From Bacteroidales bacterium (GTDB lineage Bacteria > Bacteroidota > Bacteroidia > Bacteroidales > Marinilabiliaceae), in assembly GCA_024401355.1 (NCBI GenBank), contig JAKSLF010000012.1:17376-81375 (forward strand): a DNA stretch of 64,000 nucleotides. Reading direction: 5' to 3'. Made by a program: the position numbers and the translations under genes. How positions within the stretch are numbered: position 1 is the stretch's first letter; each line of letters starts with the position of its first letter. Positions 1,700 through 42,654 of the stretch are shown one piece after another. The notes below the pieces were generated by a model. That model was given only the letters and a program-made list of their open reading frames with translations. It was not told the origin of the DNA and did not search any database.

Positions 1700-3106
1700 A
1701 TGAACATTTTTATCAAGGCATTCATATATCTGGCTCCCTTGGTTGTAGCATCTGCAACTGCTGCACAAGATTATGGCAGATTCTATGTCAATACACCTGT
1801 TGAACTCAAGCAGGTGGAGGCTCCTTCTTTTCCCGATCTTACCGTCGATTTGCGAGACTATGGCGCAAAAGGCGATGGCGTGACGCTCTGCACATCCGCT
1901 TTCGAACAGGCTATCTCTTTCCTCAACAAAAAGGGTGGTGGACATCTTATTGTCCCTGCCGGAGTCTGGCTTACCGGACCAATAGCACTCAAGAATAATA
2001 TCGACCTCCATGTCGAAATGGGCGCCATTGTCATTTTGTCACCCGATAAGAGTCTCGCTGTCAAAGAAGGCTCCGAACGTTGCAATCCTGGCATCAGCGC
2101 TTCCAAACGCACCAACATTGCCATAACCGGCCACGGCATTATCGACGGTAACGGCAAATATTGGCGACCAGTAAAGAAATCTAAGGTCAGCGATGTCGAA
2201 TGGAAGGAGTTCAAGGCTCTTGGAGGAACCGAAACCGACGGAGGTAAACTCTGGATGCCATACAACCTCAAGCATTTCGACAACCAGACTACCAACCCTA
2301 AGGACGAAGAGGCTATACGTGCCGATCTTGTCCGCTTCACCGATTGTACCAACGTACTCGTAAAGGATGTGACTATACAGAATTCACCTCGATTCCACCT
2401 CCATCCTGTGCGTTGCTCTAATGTCATCATCGACAACGTGACTGTACGTTGCCCATGGAACGCACAGAATGGCGACGCCATCGATCTCAGCAACTGCCGT
2501 CAGGCTCTTATCGTCAACTCTATTGTCGATGCTGGCGACGACGGTCTCTGCATGAAGTCTGGCACCGCACAAAAAGGTGTCGAAGATGGCCCTTGTGAAG
2601 ATATTCTTATACAAGATTGTAAGGTCTTCCACGCTCACGGCGGTTTCGTCATCGGAAGCGACTGCGCCGGAGGCATGAAGAATATTGTCGTACGCAACTG
2701 CCTCTTCAGCGGAACCGATACAGGACTACGCTTCAAGAGCGCACCAAACCGTGGCGGAAAAACAGAAAACATCTTCATCTCCAACATTGCCATGAACGAC
2801 ATCAAGGACGCAGCCATAACATTCTCCTGCTCCTATGAAGATAAAAAATATGCCGTCAATAACAACGACGATAAGTCTATAGCAAAAAAAGCTCCATTCA
2901 GTCCCGAGTTTACCGACATACACATCGACAATGTCGTATGCCGCGAGTCTTCAATAGCTCTGTTCGCTGAAGGCATGGACGACTTCGACGCCATATATGA
3001 CATCGATATCACCAATTCAACTTTCTTCTTCACCAAGAAGGACAAGGATATCTACGGAGCAAAAATTAATCTCAAGGATGTTCATTTCGTTACTTTCGAT
3101 AAGTGA
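1700..3106 (+). CDS. Glycoside hydrolase family 28 (polygalacturonase-like), secreted
   Basis: A 468-residue pectin-degrading enzyme candidate. Residues 1-22 form a signal peptide ending ATAAQD. The GH28 parallel beta-helix follows, opening with DLRDYGAKGDG near residue 51. The catalytic set can be seen in order: NGDAID near 257 (family form NTDGxD), GDDGLC near 279 with the paired aspartates, HGGF near 312 and RFKS near 343. Length and order fit exo-type bacterial GH28 enzymes of Bacteroidetes. It stands alone, with its own promoter box and terminator and no SusC/SusD pair nearby. Substrate (galacturonan or rhamnogalacturonan) cannot be decided from sequence. Confidence 0.9.
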   Translation: MNIFIKAFIYLAPLVVASATAAQDYGRFYVNTPVELKQVEAPSFPDLTVDLRDYGAKGDGVTLCTSAFEQAISFLNKKGGGHLIVPAGVWLTGPIALKNNIDLHVEMGAIVILSPDKSLAVKEGSERCNPGISASKRTNIAITGHGIIDGNGKYWRPVKKSKVSDVEWKEFKALGGTETDGGKLWMPYNLKHFDNQTTNPKDEEAIRADLVRFTDCTNVLVKDVTIQNSPRFHLHPVRCSNVIIDNVTVRCPWNAQNGDAIDLSNCRQALIVNSIVDAGDDGLCMKSGTAQKGVEDGPCEDILIQDCKVFHAHGGFVIGSDCAGGMKNIVVRNCLFSGTDTGLRFKSAPNRGGKTENIFISNIAMNDIKDAAITFSCSYEDKKYAVNNNDDKSIAKKAPFSPEFTDIHIDNVVCRESSIALFAEGMDDFDAIYDIDITNSTFFFTKKDKDIYGAKINLKDVHFVTFDK

Positions 3107-3138
3107 TGAAATACATTATAGTTTTTTCATGTATTTGG

Positions 3139-3166
3139 GCGATGTCGTGATGACATCGCTTTTTTT
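3139..3166 (+). terminator. Rho-independent terminator after GH28 gene
   Basis: Perfect 8-bp stem GCGATGTC/GACATCGC with a five-base loop, followed by seven T. It starts 33 bases after the GH28 stop codon. Confidence 0.85.
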
Positions 3167-3275
3167 ATCGAACCTTCAAGCTATAATTATCGAATCTTCA
3201 AGCTACAAATGTCGAACATTCACCCTTACAATGTCGAACATTCACCATACTTTTATCGAACCTTCAAGCTACCCA
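3166..3275 (+). repeat. Array of five 22-bp direct repeats
   Basis: Five units begin at 3166, 3188, 3210, 3232 and 3254, an exact 22-base period. Each opens with T(A/G)TCGAA and continues with (C/T/A)(C/A)TTCA. Units 1, 2 and 5 end with AAGCTA; units 3 and 4 end with CCCTTA and CCATAC. The period equals two helical turns, as in iterons or arrays of protein binding sites. No open frame covers it. A related single unit lies inverted at 42771-42788. Confidence 0.8.
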
Positions 3276-3407
3276 TAAGCTACCTTTACTTTTATTATAA
3301 AAAGGAAATGATATAGTGTTTGTGCGTTGAGAGTACGTGTTTTGAAATTCATGAATATCAGCAGTGTTAATTTTAAGCAAATGTTATTTTGATTAGAATA
3401 ATATTTA

Positions 3408-3415
3408 TAACTTTG
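3408..3415 (+). promoter_or_regulatory. -7 box ahead of structured RNA
   Basis: TAACTTTG fits TAnnTTTG. The nearest upstream TTG ends 16 bases before it, shorter than the usual 19-21. Transcription would start near 3422 and run into the structured element at 3474 and the gene at 3688. Confidence 0.4.
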
Positions 3416-3473
3416 TTTCGTTAGTGTCAAATAGACATTATTATATCACATACAAAAGCGTTATGCTTATCTT

Positions 3474-3594
3474 GCGAATGGAGACCTAGGAAATCATCAT
3501 TTTAAATGCGAGATAGCATAGTGGCTTTCACGTTTAACGTGGGCTGCTATTGCCTATTCTTTGCATTTAAGGTTTTTCCTAGGACCTCCATTCC
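3474..3594 (+). ncRNA. Candidate structured RNA (long irregular hairpin)
   Basis: The arm 3476-3494 pairs with 3574-3593: GAATGGAG with CTCCATTC, a small asymmetric loop, then CCTAGGAAA with TTTCCTAGG. Further in, TTAAATGC pairs with GCATTTAA, TAGCA with TGCTA, and an apical CACG/CGTG hairpin closes the element. The result is one ~120-base rod with internal loops. There is no open frame. A hairpin with T-rich tail follows at 3595. The shape resembles 6S-type regulatory RNAs and also a leader attenuator for the gene at 3688. I cannot assign a known family from sequence alone. Confidence 0.55.
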
Positions 3595-3629
3595 AAAGCG
3601 TGGCATATCAGTTCCACGCTTTTGTTTAT
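3595..3629 (+). terminator. Terminator-like hairpin after structured RNA
   Basis: A 9-bp stem AAAGCGTGG/CCACGCTTT with a ten-base loop and the tail TGTTTATA. It lies between the structured RNA and a partial copy of that RNA's 5' arm (3635-3655, CGAATGGGAAGACTAGGAAA). It could end the RNA or serve as the conditional terminator of a leader. Confidence 0.55.
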
Positions 3630-3687
3630 ACAAACGAATGGGAAGACTAGGAAACTTCCTCCTTAGGGACTGAGGAAATAAATAGTC

Positions 3688-4404
3688 ATGAAAAAATTTT
3701 TCATGTTATTATTGCTTTTTGTGAGCATTACTTCTTTAGCTCAAGAAATGCAGGAAGTTGTTTATCTTAAAAATGGTAACATTATTCGAGGAACAATTAT
3801 TGAACAGGTTCCTAATGAATCATTAAAAATAAAAACATCTGATGGTAGTGTTTTTGTATACCAAATGAATGAAATTGCAAAGACGACAAAGGAGCAAAAA
3901 GATTCTTCAAATAATGTTTATCTTCAAAGAGGTTATAGAGGCTTTGGTGAAGTAAGTGCACACATTGGTGTTGGTGATTATGAATATGACAGAGTGTCTT
4001 TTGCAACTGTTCACGGTTTTCAGTTCAATAGGCATTTTTTTCTTGGTGGAGGTATTGCATTACAATCGTACCAAGCAGTTCCAATGGATGTCCCTGATGA
4101 TTTGATTTTAATTCCAGTTTTTGCTAATGTACGTTGTGACTTCTTAAGTAAAAAAGTGACACCATATGCAGATGCTCGTCTTGGTTATACAATGGGAGAT
4201 TTAGTTGGTCCTTATTTTTCTACTGCAGCAGGAATAAGAGTGAAACATTTTAACTTTGCAATAGGATACGAGGTACAACAAACAGATTTGACTATTACAA
4301 AGGAAGTTTTAATTTTCAATAAATTATATAAGTCATATAATACTGAAGAAGTTTTCCTTGGTGGAATAATGTTCAGAGTAGCTTGGGATTGGGGATCAAG
4401 ATAA
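3688..4404 (+). CDS. Putative outer-membrane beta-barrel protein, unknown function
   Basis: A 238-residue protein with a signal peptide (residues 1-18, ending SLAQ). Residues 24-60 read VVYLKNGNIIRGTIIEQVP and then a short strand-turn pattern, as in small beta domains that precede Bacteroidetes barrels. Alternating hydrophobic strands follow, and the protein ends in VAWDWGSR. The gene is visibly more AT-rich than its neighbours and uses different codons, which hints at separate acquisition. It lies 60 bases downstream of the terminator-like hairpin and has its own terminator. I recognise no functional family. Confidence 0.65.
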   Translation: MKKFFMLLLLFVSITSLAQEMQEVVYLKNGNIIRGTIIEQVPNESLKIKTSDGSVFVYQMNEIAKTTKEQKDSSNNVYLQRGYRGFGEVSAHIGVGDYEYDRVSFATVHGFQFNRHFFLGGGIALQSYQAVPMDVPDDLILIPVFANVRCDFLSKKVTPYADARLGYTMGDLVGPYFSTAAGIRVKHFNFAIGYEVQQTDLTITKEVLIFNKLYKSYNTEEVFLGGIMFRVAWDWGSR

Positions 4405-22558: not shown

Positions 22559-22565
22559 CCGCTGA

Positions 22566-22641
22566 TTGACAAAGGGGTGCCAACAAGGCTGAGAACATAC
22601 CCTCCGAACCTGATGCGGGTAATGCTGACGCAGGGATTGTT
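22566..22641 (+). promoter_or_regulatory. TPP (THI-element) riboswitch
   Basis: The conserved core is plain: GGGGTGC (22574), CTGAGA (22589), ACCTGAT (22608), GGGTAATGC (22617) and GCAGGGA (22630), with a short P1 between GACAA and TTGTT. It lies 113 bases before thiG. Downstream, ATTACC at 22652-22657 can pair either with the aptamer's own GGTAAT (22618-22623) or with a second GGTAAT at 22734-22739 just ahead of the thiG ATG, a plausible expression switch. No strong T-tract terminator is seen, so control of translation is more likely. Confidence 0.95.
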
Positions 22642-22753
22642 GAAACACATCATTACCGTCTACAGCAGTTACTCACGCCACAACAACATCCCACTCGTCA
22701 ACCACTAACTTCAGTTGCCAACAATTTTAATGCGGTAATAAAAAACACATAAT

Positions 22754-42580: not shown

Positions 42581-42654
42581 TCTCCAGTGGCTCAGTTGGT
42601 TAGAGCGGCGGACTGTTAATCCGTAGGTCGTAGGTTCAAGTCCTACCTGGAGAG
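42581..42654 (+). tRNA. tRNA-Asn (GTT)
   Basis: A 74-base cloverleaf: acceptor TCTCCAG/CTGGAGA with discriminator G, D-arm GCTCAGTTGGTTAGAGC, anticodon stem CGGA/TCCG around CTGTTAA (anticodon GTT), and T-arm GTAGG TTCAAGT CCTAC. CCA is not encoded. A terminator follows five bases on. Confidence 0.97.

Follow-up and report, generated by a model that had tools for sequence, protein, structure and literature searches.

A candidate riboswitch-like leader RNA of an apparently uncatalogued Bacteroidota family, with a predicted pseudoknot at the start codon

Introduction

In the window, that is, the whole 64,000-nucleotide stretch of Bacteroidales DNA analyzed here, a block of mutually complementary segments separates a putative promoter from the start codon of a gene without a Pfam match. 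What kind of element is it, and which of its possible pairings matter? An earlier note proposed either a free-standing, 6S-like RNA or a switchable leader, in which the 3' arm of a long stem would exchange its 5' arm for a second, near-copy downstream. The pieces that it listed are present within a base or two, with the 5' arm GAATGGAGACCTAGGAAA at 3476 to 3493 and the 3' arm TTTCCTAGGACCTCCATTC at 3575 to 3593 (Table 1). The computational evidence described below supports the class, structure, pseudoknot pairing, position and portability of a leader RNA. On sequence evidence, we consider it probable that this RNA is a riboswitch-like cis leader of a new Bacteroidota class, controlling translation start.

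Results

The region from about 3424 to 3681, approximately 260 bases between the promoter and the start codon, is apparently a copy of an uncatalogued Bacteroidota RNA family. No Rfam 15 family matched the window RNA at its gathering score; over positions 3120 to 3800, a search up to E = 10 gave three matches to unrelated families, all far under their gathering scores, and a search of 19 related loci up to E = 1 gave a tRNA as the sole match. These covariance searches bear out the earlier statement that no known riboswitch core is recognizable. Elsewhere in the window, clear Rfam matches mark a TPP riboswitch (22563 to 22653) and a tRNA (42581 to 42654).

A DNA search of 61 genomes found seven copies, spread over four genomes and two genera, with a maximum of three per genome and excluding two extra matches of 21 and 28 bases. 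A covariance model built on those seven copies (R1) matched in 30 of 149 relatives (E <= 0.01), and a second model built on 47 copies (R2) matched in 30 of 296 genomes across the phylum (E <= 1e-3) and in 71 of 198 genomes across the window's order (E <= 1e-4). Copy numbers from these genome searches are lower bounds, and reach at least 13 per genome with R2 in the order-wide sample. A pattern scan of an 84,980-species collection gave at least 80 loci, and R2 matched all 80 listed; among these, 77 bear names placed in Bacteroidota (for some of the named organisms, a placement that we presume) and three are labelled only "uncultured bacterium". The genera among the listed loci include Dysgonomonas, Zobellia, Capnocytophaga, Butyricimonas, Alistipes and Porphyromonas. 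Of 31 IMG/VR contigs selected by pattern, R2 matched 12, and it matched all four fetched plasmid-collection loci (Prevotella, Phocaeicola, Parabacteroides and Bacteroides), whose gene tables carry no RNA genes, so that a blank annotation there is uninformative on novelty. A single query of phage records gave no match. The window's own genome holds a second copy (G000:C34:124271-124454; L057, L080), which precedes a small gene whose N terminus is signal-like, and two weak partial matches on contigs C12 and C45 (E = 0.009).

Table 1. Features of the leader region and the downstream gene, in window positions
Feature	Position	Strand	Remark
Portable leader module (promoter, RNA, start-site hairpin)	3398..3681	+	84% identical to L002
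Promoter box of -7 type, TAACTTTG	3408..3415	+	From position and family enrichment of the box
Small 5' hairpin, GUGUC/GACAU	3424..3438	+	From predicted fold alone
P1, 5' strand, CAAAAGCGU	3453..3461	+	Pairs with 3616-3624
P1b, 5' strand, UAUGC	3462..3466	+	Pairs with GCAUA, 3603-3607
P2a/P2b, 5' strand (5' arm of the earlier note)	3475..3493	+	Pairs with 3575-3594
P3	3505-3510/3562-3567	+	96.1% paired
P4, apical hairpin	3518-3532/3538-3550	+	Tip 98.1% paired
P2b/P2a, 3' strand (3' arm of the earlier note)	3575..3594	+	Conserved internal-loop CC, 3585-3586
Alternative local hairpin, terminator-like, AAGCGTGG/CCACGCTT	3596..3621	+	Competes with P1 and hides UCAGUUCC
P1b, 3' strand, GCAUA	3603..3607	+	From fold and family swap test
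Pseudoknot strand 1, UCAGUUCC	3608..3615	+	Unpaired bulge once P1/P1b form
P1, 3' strand, ACGCUUUUG	3616..3624	+	Partner of 3453-3461
Second near-copy of 5' arm, CGAATGGGAAGACTAGGAAA	3635..3654	+	Lineage specific, unconserved in family
P5 hairpin, TTCCTC/GAGGAA	3656..3677	+	Ahead of start codon; "third stem" of the earlier note
Pseudoknot strand 2, GGGACUGA	3666..3673	+	Six bases inside P5 loop
Downstream gene, 238 aa	3688..4404	+	ATG at 3688; signal-peptide-like N terminus by eye; no Pfam match

The predicted fold of positions 3440 to 3700 has an energy of -85.5 kcal/mol. Its 200 dinucleotide shuffles reach -55.5 +/- 4.5 (z = -6.6), and since none of them was as low, the structure of this region lies well beyond chance. 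For the family, 100 loci hand-picked for spread yielded 104 matches in an alignment fitted to the structure. Across these 104 copies, 48 pairs in nine helices are standard in 91.9% of cases, compared with 67.7% for shuffled partners and 38 to 46.0% for slid ones, with both-sided changes at 41 of the 48 pairs and a covariation score of 0.626 (0.193 shuffled, at most 0.092 slid). Because this alignment was fitted to the structure, the fold was repeated on a sequence-only alignment of 24 closer copies, which recovered P1, part of P1b, P2a, P2b, P3 and the lower part of P4, with both-sided changes at 14 of 41 pairs, for example from CCUAGG/CCUAGG to CGUAGG/CCUACG and CCUGAG/CUCAGG. In the alignment, P1 is 96.3% paired with both-sided changes in three of seven pairs, P2a and P2b change on both sides in all 17 of their pairs, and the helices linking P3 to the tip of P4 are weaker (76.6 to 86.8% paired). 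P1b reads UAUGC/GCAUA in the window and UAGCU/AGUUA elsewhere; in a swap test, its strands form 5.32 bp with their own partners and 4.71 with swapped ones (maximum of 5.10 in 2,000).

One antisense match (L151), included among the 104 copies of the covariation figures, was removed for the counts of orientation, G-U pairs and conservation, leaving 103 copies, split by eye into 88 A-type and 15 type-B. In at least 90% of the 103 copies, the P2 internal loop keeps two unpaired dinucleotides, AA (3483-3484, where the window has GA) and CC, while GG (3571-3572) and UU (3494-3495, where the window has UC) are kept next to P2b. Conservation is as high in much of P4 (CA.G...GCGUGGG) and, at the 3' end, in positions of the CCACG.C..UU type. 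One copy, L045:3172-3343, looks chimeric by eye, its 5' half being that of the neighbor copy at 1723 and its 3' half resembling L041, which suggests gene conversion between RNA copies; its P2b pairing is degraded.

Do these repeats act as RNA or as DNA? G-U cells outnumber A-C cells by 483 to 126, an excess that fits an RNA transcribed from the sense strand. A DNA-level palindrome (a MITE, a REP-like element or a recombination site) would account for the long inverted repeats, the multiple copies, the exchange of modules described below and the antisense model matches (20 to 29 bits with R1, up to 46 with R2). Nevertheless, it is disfavored by the strand specificity of that G-U excess and by sense scores that are far higher (with R1, 163 against 23.5 bits on the window), and the conserved loops and the pseudoknot also speak against it, so that we give a DNA-level palindrome hardly any credence.

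The window RNA has two folds of nearly equal energy. Its best fold (-89.0 kcal/mol) contains seven of the eight pairs of the local hairpin at 3596-3621, without the outermost; with all eight forced, the energy is -88.3, the same as that of the P1-closed fold and 0.7 kcal/mol from the best. Closure of P1/P1b (3453-3466 with 3603-3624) exposes UCAGUUCC. By lenient criteria, and with no control for chance, 46 of 103 copies have a local competitor of at least 5 bp.

Mutually exclusive pairings, as claimed earlier, are present, but the alternatives that the family supports are P1/P1b and the pairing of the bulge with P5 rather than the second copy of the 5' arm. For a switch in which the 3' arm trades its 5' partner for the copy at 3635-3654, the complementarity exists, and the closest relative, L002, retains part of the copy in an altered form (CTAGGAG). 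However, the fold that uses it reaches only -76.2 kcal/mol, 12.8 worse than the best, and with at most one mismatch per half the copy occurs in just two of 88 A-type copies, the window and L155, where it comes from a whole second RNA copy following the first. Compensatory changes in the two arms, which had been named as a test together with conservation of the second copy, are abundant, and the second copy itself is not conserved. On these two grounds, nonconservation and the energy penalty, we reject this arm exchange as the switch and think it extremely unlikely.

The recurrent alternative pairing supported by the family is a predicted pseudoknot between the bulge UCAGUUCC and the P5 loop GGGACUGA. 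In A-type copies, the bulge scores 13.9 with its own downstream partner and 11.6 +/- 0.29 with swapped partners (maximum of 12.6 of 2,000). Pairing between the base that precedes GUYCC and the one that follows GGRRC is seen in 35 of 50 copies, with 25.7 expected and 5 of 10,000 permutations as high; these permutation tests of the pseudoknot and P5 ignore the relatedness of the copies. Matched partners that depart from the consensus occur in L063 (UGCGGUUU/GAGCCGCA), L076 (CAGCUCC/GGAGCUG), L075 (AGCCUC/GAGGCU), L089 (AACCC/GGGUU) and L093, and in L143, L168 and L209, an A-to-U change in the bulge is matched by U-to-A in the partner. The GGRRC loop motif, taken as the first match in range (the wrong site in L002), is present in 54 of 88 A-type copies; single-base shuffles give 8.9 on average and 16 at most. 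A flanking stem of at least 5 bp surrounds it in 34 of these 54, against a mean of 14.0 (maximum of 24) with swapped flanks, and from its end to the start codon there are 17 to 33 nt in 35 of 42 measurable copies. Of the 70 A-type copies that have a GUYCC bulge, 20 gave no such loop within the searched range, including L041; in a few of these 20 (L047, L049 and L051), the bulge pairs via another loop form, and in others it does not. The 15 type-B copies have no visible pseudoknot partner. Missing partners in some A-type and all type-B copies count against a riboswitch-like leader.

The same 3' part of the RNA could instead be a transcription attenuator, in which the P1 3' strand or the local hairpin, with its U-run, ends most transcripts near 3625 and a signal decides on read-through. 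In 88 of 103 copies, a T-run of at least four lies within the 16 nt that begin with the P1 3' strand, and the local hairpin of the window is GC rich and followed by T's. However, the U-run is accounted for by its pairing with an A-rich 5' strand, a terminator scan does not call the hairpin at 3596-3621, and P5 and its pairing would lie downstream of the supposed end. We therefore regard attenuation as improbable.

Upstream of the RNA, TAACTTTG agrees with what we take to be the Bacteroidota -7 consensus, TAnnTTTG, and is identified as a promoter box on that basis. Among the 88 A-type copies, 65 carry a TANNTTTG box no more than 110 nt upstream (shuffled mean of 8.7, maximum of 17 in 100 shuffles), most often about 39 to 61 nt ahead of the core, and this enrichment places the RNA probably at the start of its transcript. 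Several further elements were seen in this region. The window has five direct repeats at 3168-3294, spaced by 22 bp and each beginning TCGAA, upstream of the promoter, which are possibly regulator sites or unrelated to the RNA, and a terminator-like hairpin with a T-run at 3137-3161, which follows the GH28 gene (1700-3106). In 8 of 88 A-type copies (L054, L056, L058, L116, L122, L138, L143 and L148), the sequence CCTATG, then a single codon and a stop, is present upstream of the core, against 0.04 in shuffles, and any ATG-NNN-stop is present in 24 of 88, against 12.9 (maximum of 21); this start-X-stop may be either a mini-ORF or a DNA motif.

Neighboring ORFs were called simply, with ATG as the sole start codon. 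Downstream, the nearest one shares the strand of the RNA in 92 of 103 copies, runs opposite in 9 and is missing in 2; upstream, it shares the strand in 50, runs opposite in 48 and is missing in 5. In 49 of the 92 same-strand copies, the ORF starts 40 to 62 nt past the core. Together with the covariation, this orientation upholds the reading as a structured leader before the downstream gene, and the RNA has the general mark of riboswitches, a conserved structured leader 5' of a same-strand gene. In L069, L126, L155 and L176 (the last with a partner known from the pattern match), tandem RNA copies lie 11 to 45 nt apart before one gene, like tandem riboswitches.

The leader also appears to be portable as a module. 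Window and L002 are 84% identical from the promoter to just before the ATG, with no similarity found in the flanks and unrelated downstream proteins, hence at two loci with unrelated genes. Similarly, L004 and L008 have about 308 nt in common at 90% and differ in their genes; L002 and L004 have both gene and leader in common, at 80%. In genome G148, about 400 to 460 nt of upstream region and RNA are 83 to 86% identical among three contig starts, whose downstream genes are partly alike too. Around the window gene and its homologues (E <= 1e-6; 21 of 61 genomes), 20 loci were fetched, and the RNA was found only at the window's own; the 19 homologue loci without a nearby RNA indicate that it is not a fixed part of this gene's family.

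Among the 92 downstream proteins, 54 Pfam families are represented, most often the TonB-receptor plug (9), carboxypeptidase-regulatory-like domains (9), type-9 sorting tails (4) and BspA-type LRR (3), a diversity unlike that of a classical metabolite riboswitch and thus a second point against a riboswitch-like leader. By a crude heuristic without a control, 54 of the 92 are signal-peptide-like. In L061, two tandem genes carry the RNA and their N-terminal parts look alike by eye. A general defence role was rejected, as no PADLOC model exceeded 3 of the 92 proteins, the commonest being methyltransferases. Among the IMG/VR contigs, 6 of the 12 confirmed have the RNA before a gene with much the same N terminus (L195, L197, L201, L208, L210 and L221); of the 92 proteins scanned, one matches HSDR_N families, and it is presumably that of L201. 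On a Parabacteroides distasonis plasmid (L225:3997-4167), the RNA match stops 15 nt short of a gene with the annotation DUF4433, which we take to be a DarT-like family.

The type-B copies have a setting of their own. In all 15, the neighboring upstream ORF runs on the opposite strand, at 105 to 173 nt in 14, and in 12 it encodes only 73 to 121 aa, several being helix-turn-helix-like by eye. SusC-like receptor genes are found further downstream of many of these copies. More broadly, L085-L106 (type B), L227, L228, L234 and L235 lie beside a divergent, usually small gene and often ahead of SusC/SusD-like operons. Downstream, 14 of the 15 precede a same-strand ORF by 32 to 711 nt and one precedes an opposite ORF. 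These spacings, with the lack of a pseudoknot, would suit a free-standing small RNA, 6S-like or trans-acting, lying before genes by chance, as would the RNA's own promoter and the U-run at the end of the core. Against it stand the orientation and spacing bias toward the next gene, the many copies per genome and the pairing with a start-site hairpin.

The 6S RNAs (RF00013, RF01685), usually present in one or two copies per genome and not tied to a downstream gene, resemble the window RNA in their long rod-like hairpin and similar size, but this family is multicopy, cis-placed and pseudoknotted. Neither model matched the window or any of 19 relatives, even with a permissive E-value, and RF01685 gave no match in the window's own genome, nor in its controls. 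Membership was rejected on the missing match, the copy number of up to at least 13 and the cis bias, leaving the earlier proposal of a 6S-like RNA without support, and we hold a free-standing RNA of any kind to be very unlikely. Bacteroidales-1 (RF01693) is likewise an orphan structured Bacteroidales RNA with a model of similar length (179 positions); covariance searches rejected membership, with no match in the window or its genome and a control that matched in 1 of 14 genomes.

The closest parallel in design is presumably the cobalamin riboswitch (RF00174), as we understand it a large leader in which a long-range loop pairing joins the core to a hairpin just ahead of the start codon. Its core differs, its model matched neither the window RNA nor 19 relatives, and here no single transport or cofactor theme lies downstream. 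The FopS/GibS sRNAs of Bacteroides are, in the excerpts of PMC11697453, likewise a multicopy RNA family of the phylum linked to outer-membrane gene control; FopS is described there as acting in trans and as having a 5' stretch that is single-stranded, together with a terminator hairpin, whereas the window RNA is a closed, pseudoknotted cis leader. The same excerpts state that a model of the family was deposited in Rfam; the window RNA had no match in Rfam 15, a release that may or may not include FopS. HMP2_4205 and HMP2_1032, in the excerpts of PMC8040213, are also palindromic, mostly or entirely of Bacteroidetes and near TPR or TonB genes; they are shorter (132 and 106 bp) and, compared by description rather than by sequence, could overlap with parts of the window RNA. 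Among the Bacteroidetes motifs of 2010 in the excerpts of PMC2864571, those with Rfam numbers fall under the Rfam search, and Bacteroides-2 and the GUCCY-hairpin, without a number there, fall outside it. Long or structured 5' leaders in Bacteroidota, some without Rfam hits, appear in excerpts of PMC9723704 and PMC7366714. The terms Bacteroid, Prevotella, Flavobacteri, Porphyromonas and outer membrane are absent from the text of PMC8632094. Literature searches among CC-licensed PMC papers, without their supplements, gave none that was recognizable as describing the window RNA.

Discussion

Overall, we favor a riboswitch-like leader acting on translation start. Transcription would begin just upstream, probably from the TAACTTTG box, and the RNA would fold into a rod of P1, P1b, P2a, P2b, P3 and P4 with conserved unpaired bases, closed by P1. 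Once P1/P1b had formed, the adjoining bulge YAGUYCC would be free to pair with the P5 loop, and as P5 lies approximately 17 to 33 nt ahead of the start codon, the pseudoknot would sit at the ribosome-binding region. With P1 open, the bulge would be tied up (in the window, in the local hairpin) and P5 released from the core. Capture of the P5 loop by the bulge would thus probably set the accessibility of the start region, and the core would report its folding state, probably set by a bound ligand or protein, to translation initiation. The switching itself, the direction of regulation and the ligand are inferred. According to the excerpts of PMC6847099, Bacteroidetes mRNAs are naturally without Shine-Dalgarno sequences, and initiation in Flavobacterium johnsoniae is tuned by secondary structure and by bases near the start, which makes a start-site pseudoknot a plausible means of control.

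A constitutive 5' element (an mRNA stabilizer, an insulator or a ribosome standby structure) could also travel between genes by giving strong expression, with no switching involved. The promoter and RNA common to unrelated genes, the great diversity of those genes and a compact structure close to the 5' end of the transcript all fit such an element. However, a stabilizer has no need for the conserved unpaired AA (GA in the window), CC (3585-3586) and GG, nor for a pairing at a set distance from the start codon, and two near-equal folds in the window also argue against a constitutive role. We therefore think it unlikely, if less so than attenuation.

How far the riboswitch-like reading extends to a common signal is a separate matter. 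It is possible, though we lean against it, that this orphan phylum-wide class responds to one signal, the same portable module coordinating many unrelated accessory loci (in this scenario, surface lipoproteins, SusC-type receptors, LRR and WG-repeat proteins and restriction-type proteins), with genes joining by acquiring the module. A promoter-to-start-codon module common to unrelated genes would show the growth of a regulon via leader exchange.

Reciprocal mutation of the bulge and the P5 loop would be a direct test, and ligand searches could target the unpaired bases that are conserved in the core. Found in about one third of the genomes sampled from the window's order (71 of 198) and often in multiple copies, the class would represent a large, unannotated regulatory layer in an important phylum.
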